Shown here: piece by piece, positions 25,369 through 64,000 of the stretch
Layout of the letters: each line of letters starts with the position of its first letter
Numbering within the stretch: position 1 is the stretch's first letter
Assembly: GCA_037576215.1 (NCBI GenBank)
Contig: JBANDB010000013.1
Coordinates: forward strand, 1,426,001 to 1,490,000
DNA length: 64,000 nucleotides
Origin: Armillaria gallica
Taxonomy: Eukaryota; Basidiomycota; Agaricomycetes; Agaricales; Physalacriaceae
Reading direction: 5' to 3'
The notes under the pieces: model-generated
What the model was told of the DNA's origin: nothing
The model's input: the letters and a program-made list of their open reading frames with translations, nothing else
The model's database searches: none
Made by a program: the position numbers and the translations under genes

Positions 25369-25375
25369 TCTGTCG

Positions 25376-27901: not shown

Positions 27902-28007
27902 AAAGTCGTTGACTTTTTACTTCGATTCTCCACCAGCGCTCACAGTTCCAACTGTCCGCGTATTTTTAGTAGCTTAATTTTTACCGTAGTCTCCCGTAGT
28001 TTTTGCT

Positions 28008-29774: not shown

Positions 29775-30588
29775 ATTTGCAGTATTTTCACGTAGTTTTG
29801 CATAGTCCCTTGGACTTTAAACAATCTCTTGTGTACACCGCACCTTCGGGCATATTGTTTTTGTTGTTGTATGTACCGCACTAAAGTGCAATAAATATTT
29901 CGCATTTTTGACTTGTATTTTGTGTGATTTTGAGTGGAGTTTCCTTAATAAGGCATTCGAACTTAAAGTTCGCGTTCCCCATTAAAGGTTGTGACGTCAT
30001 ATCCATTTCGGAGTGACTTTTGTGTAATTTCCGGCCTTGGCATATTTTTGCCAAGTCCATTTTTCCCAAAATAGCTTTCTTGATATGTCAGAGACATGGA
30101 TGCTGTTTTCATTTGCCGGTGCCTTCGTCATGTTTCCGAGGTATAACATAGTCGTTATTTTGTTACTGATATCCTTTTGGACAACTTCTCTTTCACCAGT
30201 TATTTTGGTATGGCCTGGATCAAGAAATATCGCGTGTTTTCTCGTTCGAGTAGGGTGTTAAAATTTCGCATTTTCTGGTTGGTTTTCTTTCATGAGTTGG
30301 CGTATTTTTATGTTTGAATGAATGTGGGGTGTACTACGCGGTGTTTCGATGCGTCACAACATGGATACCATGTCCCCTCCCCCTGACTGTAATTTTTCAA
30401 TGGTTTTGGGCATCGAAAATCATTCATTGCTCAGGATCAATGATTAAGGATAGGTATGATGTCGGGTTGCAAATTTTTTGGAGCCGTGGCTTGTACTTCG
30501 GATCCTTGTCCTTCTGTCCGCAGTGATGCTTAGAATTTACAAGTCCGCGATGAATGTTGAATCAGCCGTTTTGACCCTACGCATACTT
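29775..30588. other. spacer between the two antisense genes
   Basis: About 810 bp of AT-rich sequence, with one AAAGTTCGCG motif at 29964 and an AATAAA string at 29890 that may serve antisense gene 1. No further gene is seen. Confidence 0.5.
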
Positions 30589-30598
30589 TTCCTTCCAT

Positions 30599-30607
30599 AT
30601 AAAAGGG
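30599..30607 (+). promoter_or_regulatory. TATA-like box of antisense gene 2
   Basis: CATATAAAAGGG lies about 40 nt upstream of the ATG at 30641. Position and sequence fit a TATA box. Confidence 0.5.
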
Positions 30608-30640
30608 TGGAAAATTCGCGAGGCTGACTTCAACCAGTCA

Positions 30641-32211
30641 ATGACTGTTATTGTCTTTCCTCCTAAACCCCCCGCCTTGTCTGAGCTTGTTGCTCGACTT
30701 GAGCATCTTGTCTCTCTCAACCTTCCCAAAAGTTCTTCAGCTCAGGCCGTCAAGGACTGGTTTCGCGAGTCAAAGGATATAGAGGTAGTGTCCTTTTTAT
30801 TCCACGTTTTGCTTTTTATTCTAAATTTTGTAGACTCTGATTTCTATCCATTACGCGGATTTTCATGGCAACCACCAGTTCAAGCAGTTATCGACCCGTA
30901 CTAAGCATTTCCTACGCCTCCATGGTTTCTACGCCGAGTGGGCTCAAATGTCAAACTGGCATGGAGCTTGAGTTTCGTTCACTTCTCCCCGTTTGGCTGC
31001 TGTTTCTAAGGCAGCGCAGGCTGTTATTGAACGGATCGAGGAGATGCCTCCTGTGGCCTCTACTTTTGACAGCGACGTCCATATGGGATCACCGGCTGAA
31101 GGCAACGGTTCGTCTGGTTGGGGAAAGTCTTCCTGGTCCAATGCCGCCTCTTGACCCTCCTCTGGTGAGGACCATGCTTCTGGAACTCAGACTCCAGATG
31201 GTAAGGCGCAACAGGCAGAGCCTGATAGTTCGGACTCAGACCCTTGGGTGCGTATTTTCTTTCCAAATTTTGTGTGGTTGACTTAGCGAACTTTATTCTC
31301 CAGGGTTCTTTGCCTAAGGGTGACTGGAGCCAGCCACCGAACATCGAAGATCTCGCCGCCAAGGAAGGCACCTTGAAGGACGCGCAGACCATTGCTGACA
31401 AAGTGTCTGAGCATGTTCCTCCTCGCGTCCCTTTTGAGGGTCAACAGTTTGGTGCGAACTTTTGTGCCTTCTGTGATGGTACCCCTCGTCACTCTCCTCA
31501 TGAGTGTCCTGCACGATCTGTTAAGGTGTCTTGTGAACTTTCTTTTTATTTAATTCGCACGTTAACATTCCGGCTTTTTAGGCTCATCGTCCTTGTGCAT
31601 CGTGCCTGGCCAAACACGAGGAGTGCACCTTCCTTGGTTTGAAGGTGGAGTGCACTAATTGTGCTAGGCATTGGGGCCGAACTTGCGTAGGAGGTGTCCC
31701 TGACCGCAATGTACTGTCTTTCCCCTTTGTTGGGGAATCTGACGAGGCTATTGATTCCGTGATGGCCAAGATCGATTCGATGACATTGTCTACCGCTCTG
31801 TACGGTCCAATCGGAGGTAAGTTCACTAGTTTATATTTTGATCTTTAGCTAACTTTTTACTCCGGAATGATAGCCGGTGCCAGTACGTCTGAAAGTTCGC
31901 GTGCTCAGGAGGTCGAGGATTCTGCACGTGCCTACGCTGCATTGAATTGGCGCCAGTTGACCTTCAATGGTCCTGAAACCTTAGCGTCTCTCGTGGCTTC
32001 TTGCGATTCCTTATTCTCCAGGATTGAGGTTAACACACGTGAGCTATTTGCTCTTTTGAAAGTTCGCGCTACCCTCACGTCCGAGTATTGTATCGTTCGA
32101 GCCAAGTTGGAAGAGAAGCATGCAGACCCCAGTAATACTTTCGGGCCCCCTCTTCCTTCTCCTGTTCGTGCTCGCAAGAGTTCGAAAGGCAAGGGTGCCT
32201 CCTGGTGGTAA
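30641..32211 (+). pseudogene. antisense accessory gene 2 of Gypsy-1: Cys-rich Zn2Cys6-like protein, two in-frame TGA
   Basis: It starts MTVIVFPPKPPALSELVARL. Introns are about 30786-30833, 31250-31304, 31526-31581 and 31818-31870; the last three hold CGAACTTT or close variants. The second exon contains two in-frame TGA codons (about 30974 and 31152), each readily derived from CGA. The central part has a CAFC...HSPHEC module, followed by a Cys pattern C-x2-C-x6-C-x8-C-x2-C-x6-C (about 31594-31690), again the spacing of a Zn2Cys6 cluster. The C-terminus ends RKSSKGKGASWW, converging with the pol 3' end at 32408. It is probably a paralogue or functional partner of antisense gene 1; the DNA-binding role is inferred. 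Confidence 0.7.
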
Positions 32212-32407
32212 GCGATCGGCGCGTAGTTTAAATTTGAAGGCATGGACCTTGGTCGCACATAGTTTCCTGTAGCCGCATATCCTTTTACGTTGTTCAACCA
32301 ACGTCGTAGTACTTTTTAGCATGTAGAGACCGTGTATAGTTCGGTAGATCCCCCCCCTCACAATTGTATAGCTTGCAAAGGGATTCCACTCCCAAACATT
32401 GGTGTGA

Positions 32408-35400
32408 TTAAGCAAGTTCCGCTTCATTATGGTCTCCTTCATCGTCAGGTAGCTCGTCCAATGTATCCTCTTGATTGGAATCAAACAACTGTTTCATTCT
32501 GGCCTCGGGGACATCAATGATTGCATTGATATCCAGAAGATCTATCTTTTGCCGCACAAAGTATGGAATCAATCGATACGCCGCTATTGGTCTAGCAAAT
32601 GTTGAACTGTCTAGTTCGCACAAGATGTAGGCTCTGCCCTTGTTCCGTCCTAGAACCACTAAGGGTCCCAAGTACCGGGGACGCATTTTCCTATTCAAGG
32701 CCTTTTCTATTTGCGTGTTTCTCATTAAGACTAGACTTCCTTTTTCAAAGTTAAAGTCTTTAATAGAGTACTGATAGTCTTCTTCGAACTTTAGGGCCGC
32801 ACATCGCCTGGCTTCGTATACTTTTGATTTGATGCGTTCTAAATCTTTGGATCGTTTTTGGAGGCTGATTGCTCATCGCGCAATAAGTGAAGTGGTGTTT
32901 ATGATGTTATTAGGTGGGGGCATTAGCCAAGTGGACTCCACTATGTCGAGTGGTAGCAAAGGTTCGGTACCCGTGGCTGCAAAATACGGGGAGCAGCCCA
33001 TCCGTCTTCGCGTAGTTATCCTGTCTGCCCAGAATACCGAATACGCATTCTGGCTCCACTTCTTCTGATCTCCATCGGACGCTTTGAACAATCCTTGTCT
33101 GACATCAAAGTGTGGCCTTTCAGCTATTCCATTGGCTCGCAAATTATAACCAGAGATTCGGATATGGTTGATGTGATATTTCTTGCTGAGGTAGCCTATG
33201 GCTGCTACGAAGGCTTTTCCATTATTGGTTACGATTTCTACTAGAGCTCCCCATCGACACAGGATATCTTCAAAAATCCATTCTCCTATGGTACGCGCAG
33301 TTTCTCTTCGCAAGCATCTAAACTCTGGGTAATGACTCATGGAACAATGCCCTTGTACAATATATTTGTATTGTCCAGACATAGGCATGATCATCGTGTC
33401 CATGTACATCTTTGAGAATAGAGGTGCGGGTACAGCAACAGTTGCGGGCAAGTAGATTTGTCGGGTTTGACGAACTTGACATAAGTGACAAGTTCGAACA
33501 TACCAAGCGATATCAGCCTTCATGTCGGGCCACCAGTAACGAATTTTTATTAATTCGTGGGTAGCATAAAATCCTTTATGTGCTACCTTGTCATGACAGG
33601 ATATCATGATCTCAATTCGTTTCGACTGGGGTATGACAAGCTGATGCTTTCCTTGTGAATTTTTATGCCACAGTTTATCATCTTTTTCGAAGAAATTCAT
33701 CGTGTAGCGCATAAACTTTGCGTAGTCTTCCTCGTTATATCCTGGTGGCCGTTCTAACTTGGTGTGCCATTGTAGGATGTACTCGAGTCTTTTATCACAT
33801 AGTATTTGTTGTGCGGTGTGTGGGACATCATCGTATGTGAGCAAACTATTTGATTCTTGCGAACCTTCTGTATCCTCTGCAGTTATTGAGAATATAGAGT
33901 GGATTTGCGAAGTTTGTAGTAAGCCGTAGTGGGTATGTAAGAAATCATCCATCCCATCTTCCGGTGGTGGCGGATCCCCTTCTTGAGGAGGTCTTCGTGA
34001 TAGGCCGTCTGGTCCATGTCTAGTACCAGGAACGTGTACTAGCACGAAGTGGAATGACAATATTCCAATAATCCAACGATTTACTGCTGCTGATGGTGCG
34101 ATGTCCGGGTTTTTAAGCATTCCTTTAATTGCGCTTGCATCAACTTCTACCACAAAGGTCGGAAGACCTATAAGGTATAATTTGCAATCGCCTAGTGCCC
34201 TGTATAGCCCGTATATTTCTCTTTTGGCTTGCGAATATCCGCATTCGCGAGGATTCAATGTGATCGATCCAAATCTTGCAAAGTTTCTGATTGACGGATC
34301 GTCAGGGTTGCATTGAGCTAGGTAGTAGCCAACGGCTGCTGGTCCTGTATCGACTGCGAGTATCACAGCTCCTGAGGAATTATAATTTATTGGTTTTAAG
34401 GCCGGGCTATTTCGCACAGCTTGTTTCAAGTCTTCTTGTGCCTGTATTTCCTCTTTTTCGAATTTGAATTCCGCGTCCTTACGGAATAACCTGGTGAGGG
34501 GAAGCGATCTCTCTGCGAAGTTTTCTATGAAGTTCCTCAACACTCCTGCTGTTCCGACAAAAGCCCTTGCATCCAAGATATCTTTACAAGGTCCCCAGCG
34601 AATTATTGGGTCGACTATGCTTGGTAATGGTAGGCAGCCAGTATAAGTACACCGGTGCCCTATCACTATTATTTCTGGACAGCATAAGTATGCTTTCTTG
34701 CCTGAGAAAGTACCTCTGCAATATTTCATGCGTTGTACTATCCTATTCAGGTTTGAAAAGTGTTCCCAAACAAATCTTCGAATACCCGAATTTTCTGGTA
34801 TAGTCTCGTAGGTGTTTCCAATCTCGTAGCGTGTTTCTGGTCCCCGTACTGGTACATTGTCAATGTACGGTATCATATACTGAGGGATTTCGGGTTGCAA
34901 GATGAAGGTAACGTTGTCATGAAATATCGGGACTGAGTTGGTCCATCCCATAGGTAAGGTTACCAATCTCAATGCTCTGTAAGGTGTTTGGAATGTTGTG
35001 AGGTCTCGCGAACTTTCTGCTAGTACCCTCTCATCGTATCCGACAAATAAATCTAACATAGCTCCACAAGCTCTGCCTGCAAAGTTTTCTGCCAGTTGGT
35101 CAGTAGTAGGGGGTAATCCCGAATGTGCAATGGTAACTTCGTTAAGGGGTTCCAGACTATGGACGATTCGTAGACTCTTTCCATCTTTCTTGAGGACTGT
35201 AAACCAGTGAGAACGGTAGGAGGAATTTGATGGTTCGTATACCCCGGCGTCTAGCTTAGTTTTTATAATCTTGCAGACCTTGCTATATATTCCTGGGGGT
35301 ATAGGAATATTTCGCAATACCCACGGAGTATGTTCTACAACCGGGATATTGATAGGAGGGAAGAAGTCTTGTCTAAAACTCCCTCTTTCCGAGTCTTCCC

Positions 35401-35463
35401 AAGCAAAAGCCTGATCTTGTACACACATGAAGTGGTGCATAAGCTTTCTTTCTTCTTCCCAAG
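32408..35463 (-). pseudogene. Gypsy-1 pol: reverse transcriptase, RNase H, integrase (inactivated)
   Basis: The main frame is 32873-35440 (855 codons), with a continuation at 32408-32725 beyond a TGA at 32873. RT is recognised by WVLRNIPIPPGIY, HSLEPLNEVT, LPMGWTNS and the catalytic box, which reads YIDN (residues 192-195, Asn codon at 34856-34858) instead of YIDD. RNase H follows (VILAVDTG...VVEVDAS). The integrase zinc domain HDKVAHKGF...CHLCQ is followed by a DDE core in which the second acidic residue is changed (VTNNG for VTDNG, about 33220), while ANGIAER retains Glu. The fragment RPRYLGPLVVL is the integrase C-terminal part. A missing base near 35463 separates it from the upstream frame. 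It should be unable to transpose unaided. Confidence 0.9.
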
Positions 35464-36913
35464 GAAACCGTCATTATGGATTGAGTCGATATACTCTTTC
35501 CTTTCCATGGTATATCAAGTAGTGGAATTAAATTTGGGTGGGCGAGGCGATAATTCAGGTAAGTCTTTTAAAGGATCTCCCTTAATGTTGCAAATTATCC
35601 TGAATTTGTCGGGTAGCGTGGCTAACACTGATTATATTTGAGTCTTTTCAAACCAAGGTTCATAGTTTTCATCAGATTATTACGTATAGATTGTACATGT
35701 ACTCGAGAGGTTGTAGATTCTTTTTGGAGTGGGGTTTCTTTTCCGAACTTTGTGTGTATTTTCTTTTCAAACTTTTAGTTCGCGGACTGGCTAATGGTCC
35801 ATTATCGGTGTTTATTTCTTGTGTGGAGGGGATATTAATTCACGTAGGATCACAGGCAGTTAAATACTGTGCTGGTATTTGTGAGGCTTCGAATCCGGTA
35901 CTAGTAGTGTATGCAGAAATGATAGGGTTTTGATTTGCATCTAACTCAATGACTATGGCCACTTCTTCTTGATCTTGTAGCCTATCATCTAGTCAAGGGT
36001 CATCTTCTTCCTGATATGGGTCATTCGTCATGAGTCTAATGCGGCCCCTAGGTCTGGTTGGGATAGTCGCGGTTTTTCCCATATTAGGATCATGGATCGT
36101 GATGGTCTGGTCCTGATTCTCATAGTTCCGAACTATACTCTGAGTAAGCATATCGAAAGGTCGCCCGAGTAAGATGTCGTATATGGATTGTCATATGACA
36201 TGTACTTGCAGGTACAAGGTGATGTCTCCAAATAGGAATGCAACATTTCTTGCAAGCCCCAACGAACTATTTAATGTTCCATTGGCTGACTGCATGTCTA
36301 TAATCACAGTGGGGTCATAGGTCAACCCAAGGCGATGACACACTGTTTCCGACATTGAGATTACTTGGGATCCTGGATCAATGATGCATTCGACCTTTAA
36401 CTGATGATCTACGATAGGCAATATTGACCGCAAGGCAATGGATTCAGCCACGCATTTAAGGGGGCCTATCTTTTCGCCTTTCTTAATGCGAGCCTCATAT
36501 GGATCTTGCACTACAAAAGATCCTTCTGGTGGATCTTTGCGAACTTTTTCAACCTTGACTTGTTCAAAGGCCTGAACTATGGGATTTGGAGGTCCATATA
36601 ATAGCGTAGTTTTTGCTTTGGAATCTCCGGATGGTACTTTGATCTCCACCATTCCGGGTCCAGTGTATGAAACATCATTCTTAAAATGTTCGACAGTAGG
36701 TGGAACTTTCCATTTCGTGATGTCATCTTTTGTGATGTCCCTAATTTCGGGTGATAATGAGAATAATTCGCGTTGGGACAAGGTGACTGGAGCATCCATT
36801 GTTCGCTCGTAGACATTCCTAGCTACCAAAACATCTTCTATAGGTGCTTTAGTGCGGTATGCTGGTTCGTGATCCCGTACTTTCTTTCGGTAATCAGGCT
36901 TTGCACCTATGTT
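35464..36913 (-). pseudogene. Gypsy-1 protease and linker region, interrupted
   Basis: This is in frame with gag after a TGA (36914-36916). The aspartic protease shows IIDPGSQVISMSE (about 36385-36350) and DMQSANGTLNSSLGLARNV, the DxGS form common in basidiomycete Gypsy elements. A TGA at 36191 interrupts the conserved HVI...YDILLGRPFD, and another lies near 35993. All three stops are explicable as CGA to TGA. Confidence 0.8.
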
Positions 36914-39376
36914 TCAATCAACGGGTGGGGCGTAATTGGCTGGCCTGACTGAAGCAAAGGGATGGATATCTTCGGGAATAGTTTCTTCCATTCGATCAAG
37001 AGAGGATTCCTTCCCTGATTGTCGGGTCGAGTTCAGAACCGAAGTTACATCCTTTTCCGTCCTTTTGCTTCGCTTATCCTCCTTAACTGTAGGAGTGATA
37101 GCTTTAATGGCCTCTGCCTCTTTTGCGTCGTTTTCCTCAGTTTGTGGGGAACGTATTTCCATATCACTATCGTCTGAATCGGAGACATCGACAAGTGCTG
37201 GCATATCATCAAAGTCTGAGGTAAGTTCGCGATCATATTCATCCCCTTTCAGCTGCGCTTTCTTGATGGATTTTTGCTTCTCAGGTTCCCCAGCCACCTT
37301 CTGACTATTTCGAGTAGGTCTACCCATTGTTTTTGTGGGTTCCATTGGAACAGGGATCTCTTTCGAAGTTTTGGGTGCTGGATTCTTTTCCGAACTTTTA
37401 TCTGTGTTGCGAACCAGGTTTTGTCGAGTTAGACGAGGGATGCAAACTTCTACTTGTTTAAACCAAGTCTTTAAAGTTTCATCCTCTGAAGCGTCAGCGC
37501 ATTGCTGTAGACTCTGTAGTTCCTTTTCAATAGACCCTGTCTTGGCTATGAGAGCTTTGACACATTGCGTGATGGTCATATTGGCTGGTAAGAATCTTTT
37601 GTCCACTAGCTGAGCATATTGTTCCGCGTTTTTGATGAACGTAAGGGGTTCCCTGACGAATTGCATCATGGTAGTTACAGCACCCAATTGACCGGGGTTC
37701 TGTTGATGCCATTCTTCGATTTTGTCTGCAAGACAATTGCCGGGTAAGCCCTTTGGGAGATAAGCACCCGTAGGTAACACAATATGATTTTTGGTGTTCC
37801 TGCGACATTTTCCTTCGCGAATTTTTACATCAATGTCTTCGCAAGCATTAATGTAATGCCCTCTTTGTCCGCAGAATCCGCAATTGCCATCTCTCGTTGA
37901 GGGAGAGCTAGGAAATAATGATTGTGGCCCTGTCCCGTAATTATTCCTTCGCTGCTGACGATCTTGTTTATCCTGTATCTGCAGTTGTGCTAATTGAGCT
38001 ATCTTCTCCTCAATAGCTTGGAGGTGCAAGGATATTTCGGAAGGTTCAGGTTTTACTACCACTGGATCCGGCATTCTAGAGGTGTATGCCTGTGGTATTG
38101 ATGAAACCACAGGAGGATTATATGTCACGTATCCTGCCCCAGCCTGGTACAGTTGGGGTGCACTTGTGTAGAGACTTTCTCCTCGGCTGGTTCCTTGCAG
38201 AACAAACTGGGCAGCCTCATATATTTTGCTGAGTGCGTATGGGTCCGAAGGGAAATGATCGGGGAGTTTAATCTGGAGTCGGTGCATTATTCCTTCCCAG
38301 ACATTATCAGGGAATCCTTTGCTGAATAAATTGCTGATTTCCGAACCAGAAAGTCTCTTCTTGGACTCTAGGAACTGTGCCTTAGGGTAGAATTCCCTAT
38401 AGTATGTTCCGAGTTCAGCTAATGAAGAAATTTCGCGAGCATATTTGCCCACTACTCTTTCAATATCCATACGCTCGTACTTTCGATTAGCATCTGCGTC
38501 TGGGTATTGCTTAATGATGGCGTTTTTAAGCTGTTCATAGGTACTGTTTGCATCCGCGAATTCGGCTAGGCTTTCCCAAAAGTCTGCAACTGCGACACCA
38601 GGATAATGAGTCAACCATTTCTTCTTTTCTGCATTATCAGTGATACTGTAACGCGTAAAAAGAGCTTCCAGGTCTTGTAGGTATCGCGAAAGCTCGCGAC
38701 CTGGATTGGCTTCATCAAATATCGTAGGGGCGCTACGCTCCCTTCGGAAAGGCATTCGTGTGCTCATAGCAGCTGCTGCAGCGGGTTGTGCTCCTCCAGC
38801 TTGGCCTGGGTTCGACATTGGAGTTGGTAGAACAACGGTGGGTTTGGTTTGTACGGAAGGTTGTAATGGAACGGTGGATTGTGCTGTTACAGGGATGTGA
38901 TAAGGTTGGATTTCTTCTTTTACCGGTGTGGTAACTTGTGCTGGAGTTTGTTCTGGCGAATTTAAAAGTTCGCTAGTGTCGGTACTTTGTGTGGCAAGAC
39001 TAAGACGTCTTCCAAACTCAGTAAAGTCTAAGGCCTCGTCTGGTCTGAACAAGTATGCGTCTCCTAATGCAGGTGTGATATTTCCCACAGTATTGTACGC
39101 AGTGGGGAAGGTATCCGAATTAAGATTCTCTTCTGTGGGTTGTAGGCTGGACAAGACTTCGTCCTCTTCGCTTAGTTCGAAGGGTTCCGCAGTTGAAATA
39201 TCTAGCTGCGAGTCGTAGAATTCTCCTGGTATAGAGAATTCGATATCTTCTTCTTCCTTTATCGGAAGGGTCGAAGCACTAGGAATGGGTGGATCGTATG
39301 TGGGGTTGTCGGCAGACTTGGGTTTCAAGTGCTCGGTATCTTTTTGCCACTGTTGGCATTGCGAAGTATTTCGCAA
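36914..39376 (-). CDS. Gypsy-1 gag (820 codons) with zinc knuckle
   Basis: Gag is the structural nucleocapsid polyprotein of the virus-like particle. The frame has an acidic N-terminal third, a capsid-like region (about residues 210-390; PFRRERSAPTIFDEANPGRE to PDNVWEGIMHRL), and a CCHC knuckle CGFCGQRGHYINAC (about 37845-37890), the nucleic-acid-binding motif. The lysine- and acid-rich C-terminus runs into the protease after one TGA. No strong ATG is seen at the very start; translation could begin further upstream. Confidence 0.85.
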   Translation of the reverse strand: MRNTSQCQQWQKDTEHLKPKSADNPTYDPPIPSASTLPIKEEEDIEFSIPGEFYDSQLDISTAEPFELSEEDEVLSSLQPTEENLNSDTFPTAYNTVGNITPALGDAYLFRPDEALDFTEFGRRLSLATQSTDTSELLNSPEQTPAQVTTPVKEEIQPYHIPVTAQSTVPLQPSVQTKPTVVLPTPMSNPGQAGGAQPAAAAAMSTRMPFRRERSAPTIFDEANPGRELSRYLQDLEALFTRYSITDNAEKKKWLTHYPGVAVADFWESLAEFADANSTYEQLKNAIIKQYPDADANRKYERMDIERVVGKYAREISSLAELGTYYREFYPKAQFLESKKRLSGSEISNLFSKGFPDNVWEGIMHRLQIKLPDHFPSDPYALSKIYEAAQFVLQGTSRGESLYTSAPQLYQAGAGYVTYNPPVVSSIPQAYTSRMPDPVVVKPEPSEISLHLQAIEEKIAQLAQLQIQDKQDRQQRRNNYGTGPQSLFPSSPSTRDGNCGFCGQRGHYINACEDIDVKIREGKCRRNTKNHIVLPTGAYLPKGLPGNCLADKIEEWHQQNPGQLGAVTTMMQFVREPLTFIKNAEQYAQLVDKRFLPANMTITQCVKALIAKTGSIEKELQSLQQCADASEDETLKTWFKQVEVCIPRLTRQNLVRNTDKSSEKNPAPKTSKEIPVPMEPTKTMGRPTRNSQKVAGEPEKQKSIKKAQLKGDEYDRELTSDFDDMPALVDVSDSDDSDMEIRSPQTEENDAKEAEAIKAITPTVKEDKRSKRTEKDVTSVLNSTRQSGKESSLDRMEETIPEDIHPFASVRPANYAPPVD

Positions 39377-39484
39377 GGGACGCGAAGTTGTTGGTTCGTA
39401 GGGTCTGTTATGACCAAACTTCTTTGAAGGAGCAATGGTCGAAGGTGTGAATTAGGAGATACAGTCAAATTTGACTATTATCCC

Positions 39485-39501
39485 CCTCGCGGTGGGCTCC
39501 A
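39485..39501 (-). other. Gypsy-1 primer binding site
   Basis: On the minus strand, TGGAGCCCACCGCGAGG lies 3 nt after the 5' LTR. It begins TGG as expected for pairing with a tRNA CCA end. The same 17 bases form the PBS of Gypsy-3 (56354-56370). The tRNA is not identified; a tRNA with U at position 73, as in yeast tRNA-Lys(CUU), would fit. Confidence 0.8.
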
Positions 39502-39504
39502 AAA

Positions 39505-40825
39505 CGATGAACCTAGAGACTCCTGCGGGCAGAAAACACAAGACCTGTAACGGCAAGTGTAGCCAAGCACAGAATCTGAAGGCAGGTTCTAGCGAGTCTA
39601 GTCTTGCACCTCCGTGCGATGACTGTAGCTTCCTGGTGGTGTAGCGACGTCTTGCTACGCTTTGTTATGATTCTCTGAAGGCTGTTCAGAGGCTCAAGGT
39701 ATGTACGCGAACTTTCCTGGAAGGGAAAAGGTGCGTAAACGTGGGTGTATGCTGAGCGGGGGCGACCTAGATGCAGCGCGAACTATGTGGTGTCGGAATC
39801 CTGGCTATGGTTCCGGTAGAAGATATTTTCCTAAGCTCGCGTGCTTTCTTTAGAGAAACGCAGAGATGGAGCTGGCTTATCTAGAGAAACTCGAATTAGT
39901 ATCGTTCCTAACTTATAGGAACAGTATGCTGTTGGTGTTAGAGACTAAAGTTCGGAACCCTAGCTATGGATTACCCTTTGAAGTCTTCAGGTATGCGAAT
40001 TTATGACAGGAGGATGACAAACAAGGTAGTCTTTATATGATACCCTTGCTTGTGTTTTGGACGAGAGGATGTGAATCAAGTTATTTAACACTTGGTAGCT
40101 AGCGAGTTTGGAGAAACTTCGCAAAGTGTTATATCTCTTAAGAACGTAGAGATATTAACTTTAATTCGTGTGTATTGGGTGGTGTGTGTGGTGTGTGTAT
40201 CCTCTATCGAGAACTGTCTTTTTTCTATCTACAGGCCGTTATCTTTTATACTACAGAACTGTACTTGCTAAGTAAGCGAACTTTTGCCTTGGCTTGATAA
40301 CCGCAGTACATGATTTGTGAGCGTAGTGAACTATTTGTAACCGTAGTTCACTATACCGTGTGCTATTCTACTGTGCATACTTATTAAAAGTTCGCGTAGC
40401 CTAATAAAGCTACAGAAGGTTTACTAATTTACTTACTACTTACTCAGCCGCAGTTAATGGCTCACTAATCTCTACTATATTTCTAAGCTGTAAAAGTGTA
40501 TCCATATGGCCTCTTGAGAATCCGTAGCTATGCATAGCCTTCGCGTAGTTAAACCGCGTGACCGTATGGCTTTGTCCACGTGCAAAGGCCTAGAATAATG
40601 ACGCGTGTCTAATTTACTGCGGAAGGATTGGCAATCAATGTGCCTGGAGGCACAATGACTCATAGATATCGGAGTGAAAGTTCGCGTGGAGTGGGAGATT
40701 TAATATGATTCGACCTGTGCTGGACTTGCAACATTTGGTTTAGTGAAAGGCCGCGTAAGGGAGATAGGCGATAATTGTAAGTGGTGTCCGCGATTTCAGA
40801 GCGCACAGAGCCTGAAGGCTCATCA
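39505..40825 (-). repeat. Gypsy-1 5' LTR (right copy), 1321 bp
   Basis: It is the same sequence as 26209-27600 without the 71-bp duplication. Its inner terminal dinucleotide reads CG instead of TG (39505). It carries five CGAACTTT motifs. GTGTGTGGTGTGTG and the terminal region are conserved between the copies. Confidence 0.95.
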
Positions 40826-54984: not shown

Positions 54985-56351
54985 TGATATGCCGTCTACG
55001 TGTTCACACTTAGATTTTGCGATTTTATACAAATACTATTGCATATCTACCTTACACTAGTGATACAAAAAGGACTATAGCTGAGGCTTCGAGCTGATAG
55101 TTAGACTAGTACACAGCTAGTAGAGCCAGGACTTAGATGTGATACCACTAGTGGGTCAACTCTACCAGCCGGCCATACTAGTGACTTGAATGCTAGCAAG
55201 GTTAACTAAATATAGCCACTAGCAGACGAGTAACGTGACTAGCGCACCCAACAAGAGGCAGAGGGCACAAATCTCGTGAAGTTCAGTCACTAGTGGACCG
55301 ATCTGGGCACGCAATGCCTAAGTCAGGTTAACTAGTCATGCAGCAATCTCGAAGCAGGACTTAGAAATGAATTGGCAATGGATTAACCTTGCGGCAGATC
55401 CGACTAGTGCAATATGGATCTATTACGATCGGGACTAGTATAGCCAGGTTGCGCCTTTGATCATGATCGACAGCTGCTACAGGCACGTTCGCCAGTTCCA
55501 TCGTTTACCCTTGACACTAGTGGAGCATTGCTGCACCAAGGATACGGAATACCACCACTAGCGGAGCTCCTAGGCCCACTAGTCAGCAAGCGACCGTTTC
55601 TAGACCGACTATTGCGTGATTATTCACCATTACTCGTGACTAGCCAAGAAATTCTTATCAATAATACCCCTCTAGTCAGTTATTTATATCTCGATTGTAC
55701 CTTGATTGTCAGTATATAAGTAGTAGAATATGCTCACGTGCGGCAGGCAAGCCATCCCCGCAATTGTGACCTACTAGTCAGTATCTAGTGCCCCAATTAA
55801 AGGCTTTTGTGCTTAACCTCGATGAAGCGGCTACTAGTCGCTAAGTTACCCATAGCATTGAGTGAATAGAAGTGTCTTAGAGCAATCTTTTGTGTCCTGC
55901 AAAGGCCAAGAGTGTTTCAAAGTTAGTTCAAGCGAGTTCTCAAAGTTTAAAGTATTATTCTTAGGCCAAGAGCGCCACTAGTTTGCCTAGAAAGCGACTA
56001 GTCAAGTGTTTATTCACTTGTAAGACATTATAGGGCCAAGAGAGCCACTAGTTCAAAGCAGTCCCAGTCAGAGCGAGCGCAGTAGCTCAAGTCGAGTCAC
56101 TATTCATCCAATTGTGTCTTACCAACCCCACTAGTGCGAGTAGTACGCTTGTATAGCTCACTAGTAATGAAATAAAACGTCTTTAAACAACTTTCCTTGA
56201 TTATTGAAGTCTGCAGAGTGCTTCTATCATACTCGAAACGCCCAAATTCAATACATTGGTGATAAGTGTAGAGTTAGTGATTGGTTTAGTGTTGTTGGTG
56301 TTCATTGCCAGCCTCTAGTCCATTTGCCACTCGCCATTACTGAGCACATCA
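54985..56351 (+). repeat. Gypsy-3 5' LTR, ~1367 bp
   Basis: It starts TGATATGCCG where the Gypsy-2 RT frame breaks and ends GAGCACATCA, 2 nt before the PBS. TATA-like ATATAAGTAG lies near 55713 and an AATAAAAC near 56172. About 17 of the ACTAGT motifs are here. The 3' LTR is outside the window, so the borders rest on TG...CA, the PBS and the RT break. Confidence 0.8.
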
Positions 56352-56353
56352 TC

Positions 56354-56370
56354 TGGAGCCCACCGCGAGG
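56354..56370 (+). other. Gypsy-3 primer binding site
   Basis: TGGAGCCCACCGCGAGG is identical to the Gypsy-1 PBS. Both elements therefore probably prime from the same tRNA. Confidence 0.85.
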
Positions 56371-56841
56371 GAGTTTCAGACTTGATAATCTCATTGAATT
56401 AAGACTTTTATTTGACACTAGTCTTGTTAAATAAACTACTATTCAACCTAGCAGCTTGTACGCAATCTGTCTAACCAAGCCTCAGCGAAAGCAAAGGGCA
56501 AAGCTAGAGTAACAGAGCCCGCACAAGCATCGTCTTCGAGGCCAGCACCTAATAGTGCCGCCACAAGACCAAAAGGAAGATCAACAGCCAATTCAAAAGC
56601 TGCTGGTGTTGGAGTCCCATCTAACTACGACTTATTAAAGAATAAATGAAGTGCAACTGCACCACCCGATAGCCCACAAGCTAGGACAGAGCAGCGAATC
56701 AATGCGAATCTTAATGTCCAACAGACAAGACCCCTTGCACCGCACCCATGGCCAAGACCTTCCCCCTCTAGTGGATCAACAAACCCACTAGCCCCTGGAC
56801 AATCAAACTCCCAGTCCATTCAAACCGCTAGTAGACCGATC

Positions 56842-57603
56842 ATGTCTGCTAGCACCCAAAAGATGCCTAGACCGACGTCTAGGGACACGCCCAAGTTTGA
56901 TAGTGATGAGCCTGAGAACTTGCGTCGTTTCCTTGGTCAGATGGAGGATTTATTCTCCGACTATAGCATCACCGACGACGACGAGAAGAAGAAGAAACTA
57001 GTGAGGTACACGGATGCACGTACTGAAGAAGAATGGCAAGCATTGGAGGAGTATGATGGTGGTACCTTCGCCGAGTTCAAGGACGCGATCTTGAAGAACT
57101 ATCCAGAGGCAGCAGACACAGAGACAGGCACTTGGGAGAGGCTCATGCGTATTTCGCGTAAGTTCTCGAACCTTGGGGCTGACGAGCACAAGTCATACCT
57201 GAAATTCAAGCGCAGGTTCTTGACTGAAGCCAAGAAACTACAGAAGCCTCCAGCGCTAGTCACGAATCGTGAACTAGTGGAGAAATTCACTGAGTCATTG
57301 TCACCCATGTTTAGAGAAAACATCATGTCGCGATTGAGTATCAAGCGTGGAATCAAAAACGCGACAAGTGTGCCCGCCCCTGCTCCTGCTGCTGCTGCTG
57401 CCACAGCCGGTGCTGCTGCCACGGGTGCTGCTGTTGCTGCACCTGTAGTCGTGAGACCCATCAAGAGGCGTGAAGATATGCACACTCTCGATAAGGTTGT
57501 TGCTGAAGCAGATGATATCGCTCTCAACAGCTCTACTAGTTACCTTCTGTCAGGACTAGTGGAAGTGTATCATCGACCGGAGCCACTAGTGGTTCTGGAA
57601 TGA
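56842..57603 (+). CDS. Gypsy-3 gag, first frame (capsid-like)
   Basis: MSASTQKMPRPTSRDTPKFD introduces a capsid-like region (FDSDEPENLRRFLGQMEDLF, YPEAADTETGTWERL, FTESLSPMFRENIMSRL), then an Ala/Pro-rich tract (57361-57450). The same frame is open upstream only to a TGA near 56647, so the true start may be further 5' in another or mutated frame. Its stop overlaps the next start as ATGA (57600-57603). Confidence 0.75.
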   Translation: MSASTQKMPRPTSRDTPKFDSDEPENLRRFLGQMEDLFSDYSITDDDEKKKKLVRYTDARTEEEWQALEEYDGGTFAEFKDAILKNYPEAADTETGTWERLMRISRKFSNLGADEHKSYLKFKRRFLTEAKKLQKPPALVTNRELVEKFTESLSPMFRENIMSRLSIKRGIKNATSVPAPAPAAAAATAGAAATGAAVAAPVVVRPIKRREDMHTLDKVVAEADDIALNSSTSYLLSGLVEVYHRPEPLVVLE

Positions 57604-58364
57604 AGGCAGAATTTGAAGATGTGAAGCAGCAAGTAGCTGCTTTACTTGATCGCATTGATGTGAGTGAGAAACAGGCGAAGGAGCGTCAAGAACAAATATT
57701 GAAAGCCTTTCAACAAGGCGGAAATAATAGCTCCTCGTCTAAGCAATCGCAACCTCAGAATGAACACTCGGGAGCGGGACCAAATGACAACTGCTGGTAC
57801 AACTGGAAGCCTGGACATTATGTGAAGAATTGCCAGAACATCCAGAAGCATGTAGCAGAAGGTTTGTTGAAGCTCGTCGATAAGAAGTTCATGATGATAG
57901 ACGGGACAGCTATCCCGCATGAGCCAGCTCATCTCTGCCCAATGGATCGTATGCTTGCATCGTTGAATAAAAGGCAAGAACAGATGTTCTGGGAAGATGT
58001 TAGTGGGCCCGCTGGTATATTCAATATCAACGTACCTGATAACACTTCCTTGTATGTGAACAAGCCTCAAGATGCTAGAGACGAAGTAATTGACAAACTT
58101 TGCCAAGATCTGCAATATTGGCAGACTAGTACTCATGTTCCAACATCAGTTCAGCCTCAGTTGTTACAAGCACCTGTACCATCTACTAGTAGTCAGCCAA
58201 TGAATCAATCCTTTGACTCTAATGTGTTTTTGAACCAAATGAGGTCACTATTCAATCAGGCCGGTAGTCAGAATGCGACTAGTGGCCAGAACTTCGAAGG
58301 TCAGTATGTTGCCACATGCACTAGTGGTGGTGAGTCTTCCCAACAGGGTTTCGAAAGGGTCTGA
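57600..58364 (+). CDS. Gypsy-3 gag, second frame with degenerate zinc knuckle
   Basis: The frame starts with a coiled-coil-like segment (EFEDVKQQVAALLDRIDVSE). The nucleocapsid motif reads CWYNWKPGHYVKNC: the second Cys of C-x2-C-x4-H-x4-C is Asn, so zinc binding is doubtful. The rest is Gln/Ser/Asn rich. It starts in the ATGA overlap with the previous frame and ends in a TGATG overlap with the next (58362-58366). Confidence 0.7.
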   Translation: MKAEFEDVKQQVAALLDRIDVSEKQAKERQEQILKAFQQGGNNSSSSKQSQPQNEHSGAGPNDNCWYNWKPGHYVKNCQNIQKHVAEGLLKLVDKKFMMIDGTAIPHEPAHLCPMDRMLASLNKRQEQMFWEDVSGPAGIFNINVPDNTSLYVNKPQDARDEVIDKLCQDLQYWQTSTHVPTSVQPQLLQAPVPSTSSQPMNQSFDSNVFLNQMRSLFNQAGSQNATSGQNFEGQYVATCTSGGESSQQGFERV

Positions 58365-59674
58365 TGAAGGCTATGGGGAAGGATAAGTCGATCCCTACGA
58401 CTATTCCCCATAAACAGCCAGAGGACCATTTTAAAAACCGACCAAAGGGAACTGAACTGAAGAAATATGTAAAGAAAGCGATTGAACCAGTGTCTGATGA
58501 ATCTGATGAATCTGAAAACGAAATACCAGTACCGAGAGTACCCACTAGTAAGAAAGTCGTTGTGGAAATTCCCACTATCCGACCCACTAGTAAGAAACCG
58601 GTTACTGTAGAAGACGCTAGTGATGATGAGGATGAGGCCCCATGGCGAGAACTACCTTTTAGGAAAGTTCCGAGTGTAAGTTTCGTGCCCCTTCCCTCAG
58701 ACAGCGCAAACAAAAAGAAAACTAAAGTAAGATTTGATGAATCCAAAGCACCAGCGTATAAACATACGGCGCCTATCCATAAGGAAGGTAGAGTGCAAGA
58801 TGTCACATCTAAAGTATTGAAAACGCCTATTGTCTTGAATGCAGAAGAACTTATGGATCTGTTGGAGCCATTAAGAAAAGAGATCGCTAAGTTGATGGCC
58901 AAGAAAAGGATTTCGATGCAGCCAGTGACCAAACAGATGTATAGTGCGGGGGAGACTCAACCTGAGTCCAACCCATTGCCATTTAGTGAGACTAGTGATG
59001 AAGAAGATGCGACTGGTGAGGACTTGTCCTTGAAGTCTGATGCGATCGACATCCATGACTTGCCATCTGGGACGTTTATAGCTGTGCAATTCAATGTTGG
59101 CTTGATACCAGCTGGCTCTCTAATTATGTCCAACCCGTATCTTCAGTATCTTGACTCACTAGCGCCAGGAGAAAAGCCTAAGCAGGTAATAGTCGCGAAA
59201 GACTCGGCTAGTCTGCGAGCTGTGTATCCAGTAATCAATGGTGCAGGCGAAGAAGAAAGTGTAGTTGACGGAGGCTCGCAGATAGTATCGATGGCTAGTA
59301 TGATAGCAACCAAGCTCAGAGTAGCTTGGGATCCTGACATTACCATCCATATGCAGAGTGCGAATGGTCAACTAGAGAAAACCTTAGGGCTAGCGAGGAA
59401 TGTTCCGTTCCTTTTCAATGATATCACTGTGTACCTGCAAATACACATCATCGCTAGTCCAGCATATAAAGTACTACTAGGTCGTCCGTTTGATGTCCTC
59501 ACTGAGAGTGTAATCAGGAATCACGCAGATGGTGGCCAAATCATTATTATCACTGATCCAAACACTGGTCGAAGGTGCACTATTCCAACTTTCTTGAGGG
59601 GTGCGCCTCCTTGGGTTGCGAAAGCTGTTCCTAGAGCTACTGAAGAGGGTTTTCATTTGAACTCGATGAATTGA
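58364..59674 (+). CDS. Gypsy-3 protease frame
   Basis: A charged N-terminal half is followed by an aspartic protease: ESVVDGGSQIVSMASM (about 59260-59300), HMQSANGQLEKTLGLARNV and VLLGRPFDVL, clearly related to Gypsy-1 (DPGSQVISMSE, MQSANGTLNSSLGLARNV). The active-site D-x-G-S is intact. The stop TGA overlaps the following ATG as TGATG (59672-59676). Confidence 0.8.
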   Translation: MKAMGKDKSIPTTIPHKQPEDHFKNRPKGTELKKYVKKAIEPVSDESDESENEIPVPRVPTSKKVVVEIPTIRPTSKKPVTVEDASDDEDEAPWRELPFRKVPSVSFVPLPSDSANKKKTKVRFDESKAPAYKHTAPIHKEGRVQDVTSKVLKTPIVLNAEELMDLLEPLRKEIAKLMAKKRISMQPVTKQMYSAGETQPESNPLPFSETSDEEDATGEDLSLKSDAIDIHDLPSGTFIAVQFNVGLIPAGSLIMSNPYLQYLDSLAPGEKPKQVIVAKDSASLRAVYPVINGAGEEESVVDGGSQIVSMASMIATKLRVAWDPDITIHMQSANGQLEKTLGLARNVPFLFNDITVYLQIHIIASPAYKVLLGRPFDVLTESVIRNHADGGQIIIITDPNTGRRCTIPTFLRGAPPWVAKAVPRATEEGFHLNSMN

Positions 59675-60324
59675 TGAACGATCAAGGAGAGTTAGCCCTG
59701 CAAATCGTGCAGACTAGTGATGGTAAGTTTGAGATTGAAGGCTATATGAAGCCAAAAGAAGGTGCTAGTTTCTCAGAGAAAGAGCTATGCGACAGCTTCC
59801 TCATGGCTTCAATGGCTAGTGAAGAAAACCTTTTGCAAGATGAGCAAGCCAAGGGACTATTGAACTCTTACTTCCAAGGTAAGGTAGTTCCAGAAGGCTA
59901 TAAAATGCAATATCATGTGTGTGAGCACACTAGTGATGGCTCTCTGTTACTAGACGATACTGAAGTCCCAATCTATAATGTACTAGTTGATAACTTGCGC
60001 ACAAAATCAAAGACTAGCCAACCTACAAAGAAAAAGACGGCACTAGTCCCCGGTTTTGAGCACCTTGGTGCACGCATGAAGAGCCCCGACTTTAAGCCAG
60101 TTGCAGTGCTCGCTAGTAAGAAATATAAGCCTGTGGCACTAAAAGTAAAGCCACTATTAGGCGATCTGCTGGACAAGTTTCAAATAGTGAGAGACATTAA
60201 GGGTGATCCCCTCAAGGACATCCCACTATTGAGCACTAGCCTGCCAGAATATGTGCCTACAGCATGCTATACCCCTGAAAGAAAAGCTAAGATTGATGAA
60301 AACCATCCAGAAGGATTTCTATAG
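59674..60324 (+). CDS. Gypsy-3 frame between protease and RT
   Basis: It starts MNDQGELALQIVQTSDGKFE and ends at a TAG (60322) in frame with the RT frame 18 nt later. The RT frame's leader continues PEERKLMHHF, so TAG is probably a mutated sense codon and this was the N-terminal part of Pol. No catalytic domain is recognised in it. Confidence 0.65.
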   Translation: MNDQGELALQIVQTSDGKFEIEGYMKPKEGASFSEKELCDSFLMASMASEENLLQDEQAKGLLNSYFQGKVVPEGYKMQYHVCEHTSDGSLLLDDTEVPIYNVLVDNLRTKSKTSQPTKKKTALVPGFEHLGARMKSPDFKPVAVLASKKYKPVALKVKPLLGDLLDKFQIVRDIKGDPLKDIPLLSTSLPEYVPTACYTPERKAKIDENHPEGFL

Positions 60325-63300
60325 CCAGAAGAGCGCAAGCTAATGCACCATTTTATGACTATCCAAGAGCAAGCTTTTGCTTGGGATGACACGGAACGTG
60401 GGCATTTCCAAGAGGACTTCTTCCCGCCAATAGATATTCCTGTAGTACTGCACACTCCATGGGTTTTGAAGAATATCCCCATCCTGCCTGGAATCTACGA
60501 GAAAGTCTGTTGGATTATTAAATCCAAGATCGACGCTGGTGTATACGAGCCATCTAATTCCTCCTACAGATCGAGGTGGTTCTGTGTAATTAAGAAAGAC
60601 GGTAAAAGTCTTCGACTAGTGCATAGTTTGGAGCCTCTGAATGCAGTGACTATCGCGCATTCTGGGATTCCGCCGGCCACAGACGAACTATCTGAGCATT
60701 TTGCAGGAAGAGTGTGTGGCGGGTGTTTGGACCTGTATGTTGGATATGACGAGCGAGATATCGCGATTGGATCCAGAGACTATACTACGTTCCAAACTCA
60801 TTTCGGTTCGATGCGACTAGTGAAATTACCAATGGGTTGGACTAATTCGGTACCAATATTCCATGAAGATGTAACGCATATCCTACGAGAAGAAATACCA
60901 CATGTCACTCGTCCCTATATCGATGATGTACCTGTACGAGGGCCCAAAACTCGCTATGAAACTGAGGATGGGGGCTTTGAGACTATCCTGGAAAACCCTG
61001 GGATTCGTCGTTTTGTATGGGAACATATGCAGAACATGAATCGAGTGGTTCAACAGATGAAATATTGTGGAGGTACCTTCTCTGGACCTAAGACGTTCTT
61101 GTGTGTTGAGGAAATGATGGTGGTCGGTCATCTATGCACATATGAAGGAAGAAAAATCGAACCTGATAGAGCTGGAGTCATCAGTCATTGGGGTCCTTGT
61201 CAGCACCTCACAGATGTACGAGCCTTTCTGGGCACTTGTGGAGTCTGTCGAAAGTTTATAAGGGACTATTCGAAGATAGCGGAACCACTGGTCAAGTTGA
61301 CACGACTCAATGTATCCTTCGAGTGGGAGGCTGAACAGCAGCTAGCCATGGACAAGCTCAAGCATGCAGTCGTGACTAGTCCGGCTATTCGACTGATTGA
61401 CCTCACTAGTGATGCAGAAGTGGGTCTATGCGTTGATACTTTGTACAAAGCTGTTGGATTCTACATCTATCAAGTTGACGAGAAGGATCCTACCAAGCGC
61501 TATTATGTGCGCTTTGGTTCGATCACTATGAATGAAAGAGAAGCACGGTTTTCACAGCCCAAACGCAAGTTGTATGGTCTATTGCGAGCTTTAAAGGCTT
61601 GTCAGTATTGGCTTATTGGAATTCGCAACTTAGTGGTTGAGACCGATGCGCAGTACATCAAGGGTATGCTAAGCAACCCAGGAATGGGACCAAATGCCAC
61701 TATCAATTGTTGGATAGAGGATATCTTGATGTTTCATTTCACCCTTCGACATGTGAAAGGTAGTACTTTCCCTGCTGACGGACTATCGAGGCGAGATGCG
61801 CAACCTGGCGACAAGATCCATCCTGACTTGGAGGATTACGAGCTAGAGGACCATGGCCCTTTGCAGTTTGAAGTAGCGGAAGGGACTAGTGAGCTGCCGA
61901 AGGAACTAGAGGAATTTAAGAATGAAATTGATAGTCGAGGTGGTTACATGCACGCACTAGCCACTAGTATCGACAATTTTTCTGTAGAATTAGATGAAGC
62001 CCGCTCTCGTGAACTAGAACTAAGAAATCTTTACTTAGCACAGGAGAAAACCAATGAAACCATATGCCAGTTCTTGAAAGCGACTCCACTCATTCCTGAT
62101 CTCGAGTATAAGTTCGATCCTAACAAAAGAGAGGACTATCCAGAGAAACAATGGACTAGTAGTGGACTAGCACAAGATGGACAGCTGCCACATATCAGGA
62201 CTTGGTTGAGGAACCCTAGACACCGCCCAGAAGGACTTAACGACAAGCAGTACTTGACTTTCAAGCAGTACTGTCGTAACTTCTTCTTGGACAAAGAAGG
62301 CAGACTATATAGACGCAGTACTGAAGGAGACCACCAGCTAGTAGTGGATAAAGAGCATCAAATGTATATGATGAGATCGGCACACAACTCGTTAGGACAT
62401 AGAGGCTTTTACGCAACTAAGTCACTGTTGGAGCAACGGTTTTGGTGGCCAGAGTTGGAATGAGACGTCAGTTGGTATGTCAAGTCTTGTCATTTATGTC
62501 AAGTCAGACAGAAGACTATGGTCCGTATTCCACCCTCTGTCACCGAAACGCCTTCACTATTCCAGAAAGTACACTGCAATACTATGGTTATGACCCTGGT
62601 TTCTAATAAGTGCAGGTATATAGTTCACGCACGTGACTTGTTATCATCTTGGCCTGAAGCAAGGGCCTTACAGCAAGAAAATGCTAAAGCAATTGCGGTT
62701 TGATTCTTTGAGGATGTGATATGCAGGTGGGGCTGTCCCAACGAAATAGTAACTGATAATGGCGGACCTTGGGTCGCAGTTATACAGTGGCTAAGTGACA
62801 AGTATGGCATCACCGGCATAAAGATCACTCCTTACAACTCGCAAGCGAATGGAAAAATTGAAAGAGGCCATTGGGACATTCGTCAATCGGTATTTAAGGC
62901 GACTAGTGGCAACCCAAAGAAGTGGTTTTACTTCCTACCGCATGTGTTATGGGTGGACCGTATCACTATCAAACGCGGTACCGGTTGCTTGCCATATTTC
63001 ATGGCACTAGGCGCACATCCAATAGTACCCCTTGACATAGTAGAAGCTACTTGGCTAGTCAAGCCCCCAAGTGGAATCTTGAGCACCGAAGACCTTATTG
63101 GTATGAGGGTGACAGCACTAGCTAAGCATGCCAAACATATAATGGCCATGCGACAGAAAATTAATAAGAATAAGCTCGATACAGTACTACGCTACCAACA
63201 TGAGCACAAGGCCACTATCGTGGATTACGACTTCAAACCAGGTCGACTAGTGCTTATGTGGAACACGCGAGTCGAGGAAAGTCTCGATAGCAAGATGGAG

Positions 63301-63540
63301 CTGAGGTACTTGGGGCCACTAGTCATTATCAGAAGGACTAGGGGTGGTTCTTATGTCTTAGCAGAGTTGGATGGATCCATAGTGGGTGGCACAGTTGCTC
63401 AGTTTAGAGTAATTCCATACCATGCGAGGCATAGTATCGAGTTACCCAAGAAAGTTCATGATTTGATCGATGTAAGTCCCCAAACTCTTAAGGAGTTGGT
63501 GACTAGTGACGAGTCTGTCCCAACAGAATATCACTATTGA
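60325..63540 (+). pseudogene. Gypsy-3 pol: RT, RNase H, integrase with stops
   Basis: The frame 60343-62463 holds RT (WVLKNIPILPGIY, HSLEPLNAVT, intact YIDD at about 60918-60929) and RNase H (VGLCVDTL...LVVETDAQ), and ends in the integrase zinc domain (HNSLGHRGFYATKS). TGA codons at 62461 and 62701 interrupt; the rest is at 62464-63540. In the integrase core the first Asp is changed (HCNTM, about 62573), while VTDNG and ANGKIER are intact. It ends with the LRYLGPLVII-type C-terminal part. It aligns closely with Gypsy-1 pol. Confidence 0.88.
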
Positions 63541-63877
63541 CCCTTAGGCAAGAAACTATATGGTATAGACCAAGTTAGGCTGCAACAGAGCGACACTAGT
63601 GAGTCTGACAGCGAAGATTCAGGTTCGGAGGCTGAAGGATACCTTCAGCCCAATGAATATGATAGCAATAGTGATGAAGACAATGAAGTCCCCATCACTA
63701 GTCAACTGAGAAGCTCGAAAACTGCAGGCTAGAATGGTCAAACACACTTTATATTGCTAGGTAATGACGGTGTATGCTAGGTACTGTATCTAAGCAGTTG
63801 GAAATTATGAGAAATGACAGACTGGTGATTGAAAACTTTTATATATGGCAACTAGTGACCATTACAAACAGCTAGTG
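63541..63877. other. Gypsy-3 pol 3' flank
   Basis: The pol stop (63538-63540) is followed by an acidic reading (SESDSEDSGSEAEGYLQPNE) in another frame, ending at a TAG near 63730. This may be a former C-terminal extension after a frameshift. Three or four ACTAGT motifs lie here. Confidence 0.4.
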
Positions 63878-64000
63878 CTAGTCAAGCTTGGAACTAGAGG
63901 CAACGGGAGTAGGAGAATCGTCTTCCATAGGTACCAGGAGATGACTTTCGAGCTGCTTGACGACTTGGCCATGATGAGCAACCACAAACTTGCGGTACTT
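63878..64000 (-). CDS. 3' end of an antisense gene in Gypsy-3 (partial)
   Basis: A minus-strand frame enters from the right edge and ends at a TAG (63878-63880). The 40 visible residues begin KYRKFVVAHHGQVVKQLESH and end ASSSKLD. It lies just after pol and points toward it, exactly where Gypsy-1 carries its antisense genes. No domain is visible in this part. That it is a homologue of the Gypsy-1 antisense genes is inferred from position. Confidence 0.5.
   Translation of the reverse strand, partial: KYRKFVVAHHGQVVKQLESHLLVPMEDDSPTPVASSSKLD

Follow-up and report, generated by a model that had tools for sequence, protein, structure and literature searches.

Helically phased ACTAGT sites and an antisense cysteine-cluster gene in an Armillaria Gypsy retrotransposon

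Introduction

Self-encoded, family-specific anti-silencing is known for plant DNA transposons; VANC of the Arabidopsis VANDAL elements recognizes a private motif that is present at high density and is needed for binding in vitro (excerpts of PMC5735166). Among sequence elements described as positioning nucleosomes is CTAG with its minor groove turned toward the histone core (excerpts of PMC2880596). Here we analyze a 64,000-nucleotide stretch of Armillaria gallica DNA (contig JBANDB010000013.1, positions 1,426,001 to 1,490,000, forward strand; hereafter the window), in which a long terminal repeat (LTR) retrotransposon, Gypsy-3, carries a dense array of the palindrome ACTAGT together with an antisense gene for a cysteine-cluster protein. 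A literature search of open-licence PMC papers found no description of such a fungal LTR-retrotransposon system.

The ACTAGT array of Gypsy-3

Gypsy-3 is an LTR retrotransposon of the Gypsy superfamily, as indicated by its paired LTRs, its primer-binding site and the order of its Pfam matches (RT_RNaseH, then Integrase_H2C2); the reverse transcriptase domain itself is absent from the Pfam listing for its pol. The element was too short as first reported: it spans 54985-71192, i.e. beyond the window end at 64000, and has LTRs of 1,367 bp each (54985..56351, plus strand, and 69826-71192; 98.1% identical), the termini TGAT...ATCA and a CCGG target duplication.

The window contains 53 copies of ACTAGT, compared with a mean of 13.0 in dinucleotide shuffles of the whole sequence (sd 3.8, maximum 25, n=100). 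The array comprises 48 of them, with no strand assigned (55056..63856), in line with the approximate number given in the preliminary description; the remaining ~55 kb holds 5, below expectation, as had also been stated there. The claimed enrichment is real, at a value nearer ~16-fold than ~20-fold (48 vs 3.0 expected from local dinucleotides in 55001-64000). Complete Gypsy-3 holds 73 sites. Their density per kb is 12.4 in the LTR, 8.6 from the 3′ LTR to the antisense ATG, 3.9 in the gag-pol span and, for the window copy, 0.4 in the antisense gene; the C6 counterpart of this gene has 3 sites in 2,160 bp. The sequences flanking ACTAGT have almost nothing in common; the previously proposed extended form CACTAGTG is real as a weak preference (0.4 bit before and 0.3 bit after the hexamer), and self-comparison of the LTR revealed no tandem units.

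Six open reading frame pieces include 26 ACTAGT, while codon shuffling yields 6.96 ± 2.30 (maximum 15, n=500); codon usage had been dismissed as an explanation, and this control bears that out. The "several" reading phases mentioned earlier are two, phase 0 (18 sites) and phase 2 (8 sites). None is in phase 1, which would place TAG in frame.

Helical phasing of the sites

The most unusual property of the array, not noticed before, is the helical spacing of its sites. Distances between ACTAGT within the LTR (20, 30, 31, 42, 49, 50, 60, 62, 72, 82, 83 and so on) track multiples of ~10.25 bp. All 17 sites of the 5′ LTR fall into a single 10.24-bp register (s.d. 0.76 bp over 108 turns), sharing a common phase over 1,104 bp (R 0.89, vs 0.76 as the 99.9% level for random sites). 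When periods from 9 to 12 bp were scanned, 10.25 bp was the best for the 47 pairs of sites separated by no more than 160 bp in the LTR and internal part, with a mean cosine of 0.78 that was matched by none of 4000 jittered sets. The LTR alone reached 0.82 and the internal part 0.73 (0/4000 in each case), and the coding part, jittered codon-wise, 0.68 (19/4000). The best period remains 10.25 in distance bands from 60 to 400 bp and fades at 400-600; the shortest band, which resolves poorly, gave 10.15.

The LTRs of copies C6 and C2 show phase coherences of 0.90 and 0.93, values that are not independent of the window LTR because all three are 92-96% identical to one another. Lineage-specific sites (columns 71, 305 and 419 in the window copy, 132 and 234 in C6 and C2) are also in register, within 1.5 bp. 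Twelve further stretches were tested singly. L018, which contains an LTR, and L038 are clearly phased alone (0/500 and 7/500, respectively); phasing is marginal in L009-L013, L016 and L021 (8-27 of 500), which have most of their sites in common. No lattice going further than nearest neighbours was demonstrated: with the intervals permuted, coherence was as high in 504, 639 and 484 of 4000 trials on the three LTRs, and nearest-neighbour phasing suffices to account for the long coherence. Among the families tested, Gypsy-3 alone shows the phasing, which suggests that a protein binds wrapped DNA on one face.

DNA periodicity around the sites

The LTR has the pattern of rotational positioning, with AA/TT recurring in register every ~10.2 bp and G+C steps in antiphase, which becomes weak after masking 6-10 bp around the sites. 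Once every ACTAGT and every site with one mismatch is masked, AA/TT is at its maximum at the site centre, and GC, CG and CC lie ~5 bp off. The power of the A/T versus G/C dinucleotide (WW/SS) signal at 10.24 bp is 31.4 in the unmasked and 20.4 in the masked LTR; none of 40 window blocks of 1,367 bp exceeds 5.4. Values are 32 and 34 near 10.26 for the LTRs of C6 and C2, and 4-5 for those of the ACCWGG family and of the sister element Gypsy-2 (see below). Masking 6 bp more around the sites leaves 11.0 (largest of 300 shuffles 11.8), 10 bp more leaves 9.8 (largest 7.6) and 15 bp more leaves no periodic signal in the LTR; in L038:1-1400, with 10 bp masked, a 10.24 peak of 10.3 remains. Since extended masking erodes the power, the background periodicity is genuine in the neighbourhood of the sites and modest at a distance.

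In an 800-bp scan allowing periods of 10.1-10.4 bp, the LTR reached 27.8, vs 15.8 at 19001-19800 and 13.3 at 25001-25800; WW/SS periodicity near 10.3 bp thus occurs outside Gypsy-3 as well, at 19001-19800 and 25001-26000. A general 10-bp periodicity of the window was rejected on the 40 blocks, although a few 800-bp stretches attain up to 15.8.

The antisense gene and its cysteine cluster

The 3′ end of the antisense coding region lies at 63878..64000 on the minus strand and runs on to 64135. Most of the gene is beyond 64000 in the window copy; the remainder, also on the minus strand, occupies ~67105-69362, and its start adjoins the 3′ LTR. Here the coding region is interrupted by an inverted repeat (64179-67130; L006) with arms of ~1,437 bp, 99.65% identical and 81 bp apart, which represents either an inserted foldback element or an artefact of assembly. 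The C6 copy has two identical LTRs; a hand-built model of its antisense gene has ten exons with GT/AG borders and an open frame of 550 amino acids (aa). The 3′ splice acceptor of exon 6 in the hand-built L038/L044 gene model (CTAG|T) is furnished by an ACTAGT.

Among the 8000 best candidates scored, 41 relatives of the C6 protein were listed, all from Armillaria or Desarmillaria and uncharacterised. The best conserved region in an alignment of 31 of them surrounds YGCAQCSSSVQNQ-C-FLGWGKRCNNCEAATKSLCSF, a cysteine cluster whose Gypsy-3 type (G3, spacing 2-8-8-2-7) is present in 33 of the 41 relatives and in none of 1520 shuffled proteins. The Zn(II)2Cys6 pattern of fungal transcription factors is C-x2-C-x6-C-x(5-12)-C-x2-C-x(6-8)-C. 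Antisense clusters resembling it were found in five families (G3, ACCWGG, AGTTCG, CGGCAA and L023/L043). Gypsy-2 encodes C-x2-C-x6-C-x8-C-x2-C-x7-C (31594..31686, plus strand), and 6-8-7 loops of this type (G2) occur in 4 of 12 relatives, with one more having 6-5-7. Besides Gypsy-2, cluster-bearing antisense strands are those of L041 and L042 (two clusters each), L043 and L046; the sense strands of the same 9 stretches contain no cluster, and no antisense cluster was identified in L040, L039 or window positions 32900-39500. The paired clusters of L041 and L042 are apparently different from each other and might accompany composite words. The L040 protein of the ACCWGG family has the cluster in 0 of 23 relatives; that family's cluster sits in the other antisense stretch, L046. 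Homology of the G3 and G2 clusters is not established, because only a 20-column core aligns in the profile comparison (E 0.012, probability 3.6).

A second antisense type, P0035, is 36% identical overall to the C6 protein and 64% identical in the cluster region, and lies in ACTAGT-rich DNA. All 12 loci (L049-L060, overlapping) around antisense relatives found with P0035 and P0027 hold 6-16 ACTAGT vs 0.5-1.0 expected. Very different antisense proteins sharing ACTAGT had been named as a finding that would speak against co-divergence of motif and binder; P0035 is not clearly such a case, because its cluster region is so similar to that of C6.

Private words in other Gypsy families

The sister element Gypsy-2 (26210..40825, minus strand; LTRs at ~26210-27600 and 39506-40825) has a pol ~60% identical to that of Gypsy-3 and carries AAAGTTCG/CGCGAA in place of ACTAGT. 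Both elements have the primer-binding-site-like sequence TGGAGCCCACCGCGAGGG 3′ of the 5′ LTR (56354..56371, plus strand, in Gypsy-3), in agreement with the preliminary description.

We read 30 of 63 long pol hits, in addition to Gypsy-2. Related elements do have different motifs, as proposed: 26 of the 30 loci show a word, and five words were distinguished (ACTAGT in 12 loci, ACCWGG in 10, CGGCAA in 2, ATCTAG and AGTTCG in 1 each). The other four (L023, L026, L027 and L032) have none that is clear; clustered AAACCC in L026 (12 vs 2.0) was not counted as a word. Within pol alone, the family's own word exceeded codon-shuffled counts in 7 of 8 loci: L011 (7 vs 2.0), L014 (9 vs 2.0), L018 (5 vs 1.3), L017 (8 vs 2.4), L020 (16 vs 3.6), L031 (15 vs 3.7) and L036 (4 vs 1.1). 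The eighth, L035, shows no excess of its AGTTCG in pol (1 vs 0.7). Words of other families were not in excess in the pol of any of the 8 loci (lowest 31 of 300). Phasing as a trait of all families was rejected, as none was seen in the ACCWGG or AGTTCG families.

Conservation and CpG context

In 48 ordered comparisons of L011, L014 and L015, ACTAGT was retained 44 times, vs 53-68% for CpG-free TA hexamers. Differences in pol are concentrated in CpG context (1428/2973, with CpG context making up 9.7% of bases), an excess in keeping with methylation and silencing of the copies. Near ACTAGT, protection of CpG was looked for and none was seen.

Proposed mechanism and alternatives

The reading that we favour, and to which we give about an even chance, is that Gypsy-3 encodes a family-specific DNA-binding activator or anti-silencer of its own, VANC-like in its working, within an LTR retrotransposon. 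In this regulatory system ACTAGT would be the cis-acting half, and the antisense gene, whose reading starts next to the 3′ LTR, would supply a zinc-cluster-like protein that binds ACTAGT on its own family's DNA, probably as a dimer. With the sites on one helix face, the minor groove of CTAG toward the histone core and the major groove out, several protein molecules could sit adjacent on wrapped DNA and might keep both promoters, that of the LTR and the antisense one, accessible in the face of host silencing. Given its own word and its own cluster, each family would open mainly itself. The observations behind this proposal are the motif, its phasing and register with AA/TT and G+C, the gene with its cluster, and the family-private words, and it is supported by the peaks of site density in the LTR and in the stretch from the 3′ LTR to the antisense ATG; zinc binding, DNA binding, dimerisation and activation or anti-silencing are properties that we infer for the protein. 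If true, the two components would represent a strategy convergent with the self-encoded anti-silencing of plant DNA transposons, and the sister families, with other word-and-cluster pairs, a natural series for protein-motif co-change.

A doubtful, more specific version is that the protein assembles into a lattice on one side of LTR DNA wrapped around nucleosomes, with the major grooves of ACTAGT facing outward at 10.24-bp steps; it would then read chromatin, not naked DNA. The retrotransposon would in that case provide both a self-encoded pioneer factor and a docking surface to match, ~1 kb long. The helical register offers a specific, testable prediction on how DNA is read on nucleosomes.

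Several results weigh against the self-encoded activator. The antisense proteins scanned gave no convincing Pfam or PDB match, the zinc-cluster model included; the first loop of the G3 cluster has 8 residues vs the usual 6. Third positions change about equally inside (3/49) and outside (185/1717) ACTAGT, as do variable LTR columns (9/114 inside sites, 114/1251 outside), and CpG decay is independent of distance to ACTAGT, not lower nearby. Phasing is also missing from individual Gypsy-3 pol loci (L014, L015 and L019, each tested singly); the ACCWGG family (10 pol loci; L046, L047, L040 and the LTR of L040) and the AGTTCG sites of Gypsy-2 (few pairs) lack phasing. The suggested co-divergence of motif and binder may hold in part, as words are private and clusters differ in five families; the coupling is not perfect, because L043 bears a cluster but belongs to a family in which no word is clear, and L017 has a word, yet no cluster was seen in L039.

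It is rather unlikely that the array is purely structural, with CTAG at ~10.2-bp steps positioning nucleosomes, the LTR being rotationally positioned or like the periodic A/T clusters (PATC) of Caenorhabditis elegans, and the antisense protein acting otherwise. The site-masked LTR does keep AA/TT in register and GC/CG/CC opposed at a power unmatched in the blocks elsewhere, CTAG is the positioning element described above, and in C. elegans silencing can be averted by PATC DNA (excerpts of PMC7725773). The off-site signal is modest, however, and disappears with 15 bp more masked, a positioning word need not be private to a family, and the words of sister families lack TA (ACCWGG) or phasing. 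An origin of the enrichment as a side effect of coding, of tandem duplication or of a signal at the RNA level is extremely improbable. Phase 0, ACT-AGT (Thr-Ser), is indeed the commonest coding phase (18/26), but codon shuffles fall far below the observed sites, density peaks in the LTR, the flanks have almost no common sequence and 10.24-bp phasing belongs to duplex DNA; all three sources were rejected on these grounds.

Two further explanations concern the binder. LTR promoters often rely on host factors, and ACTAGT is a short palindrome, as are many host sites, so a host transcription factor might bind the word and the element have gathered its sites, with the antisense protein unrelated to it. 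We consider this quite unlikely, given that sister families of one genome have different words, that relatives of the antisense protein lie in ACTAGT-rich DNA in all 12 overlapping loci read, and that a promoter has no need of dense sites inside gag-pol. It is very unlikely that the antisense protein recognizes ACTAGT but serves for autorepression or copy-number control instead of activation: a repressor too would act over the LTR and from the 3′ LTR to the antisense ATG, where sites are found, but tens of sites through gag and pol are not obviously required for repression.

Other features of the element and its neighbourhood

Downstream of the primer-binding site, Gypsy-3 contains gag-side open frames in several frames, some interrupted (56650..60324, plus strand); two gag-side pieces scanned with Pfam gave no significant match. 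The pol frame (60325..62463, plus strand) matches RNase H-like and integrase zinc-binding domains, and a downstream pol frame (62704..63540, plus strand) is integrase-like by position, its Pfam scan being without match. Both Gypsy-3 copies examined are inserted at GCCGGC with a 4-bp CCGG duplication (54981-54984 / 71193-71196; L045:64-67 / L044:2529-2532) and Gypsy-2 in TCGG (40826-40829 / 26205-26208); a target-site preference of these elements is possible. Beside the 3′ LTR, L006:7542-9975 is a portion of another Gypsy-like pol, the end of which we take to resemble a chromodomain. Related open frames at 1457-2371 (minus), 13311-14324 (minus) and 193-834 (plus) resemble metacaspase genes or fragments of them.

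Comparison with known systems

Plant Gypsy elements with antisense accessory open reading frames have, like Gypsy-3, an extra antisense gene between pol and the 3′ LTR; we know of no phased motif array in them (no separate search was made). Fungal Zn(II)2Cys6 (GAL4-type) factors recognize, as dimers, short triplets in inverted or everted arrangement. The Gypsy-3 protein resembles them in its six-cysteine cluster with two C-x2-C pairs and differs in the missing Pfam match, the longer first loop (8) and its antisense location in a retrotransposon. In common with the nucleosome-positioning CTAG/TTAA sequences, the Gypsy-3 LTR has CTAG, AA/TT and G+C in the described rotational order at ~10.2 bp (excerpts of PMC2880596), but here a single fixed hexamer is maintained for more than 1 kb within one family of elements. 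PATC likewise tie periodic DNA to protection from silencing; as far as excerpts of PMC7725773 describe them, they are A/T clusters in non-coding DNA and have no private palindrome with an encoded protein.

The VANDAL/VANC system shares with Gypsy-3 an element-encoded accessory protein, a dense, short, family-private motif, and different motifs in related elements (excerpts of PMC5735166 and PMC10398659). According to the same excerpts, VANDALs are DNA transposons (Mutator-type, with VANA transposase), whereas Gypsy-3 is an LTR retrotransposon, and VANC targets mainly non-coding tandem repeats in one orientation, whereas ACTAGT is a palindrome, also present in coding sequence (26 sites), phased and without repeat units. 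The VANC domains DUF1985/DUF287 had no Pfam match among the antisense proteins scanned. By analogy, the Gypsy-3 system may work like VANC; it is not a member of that group, its protein, element class and motif layout being different.

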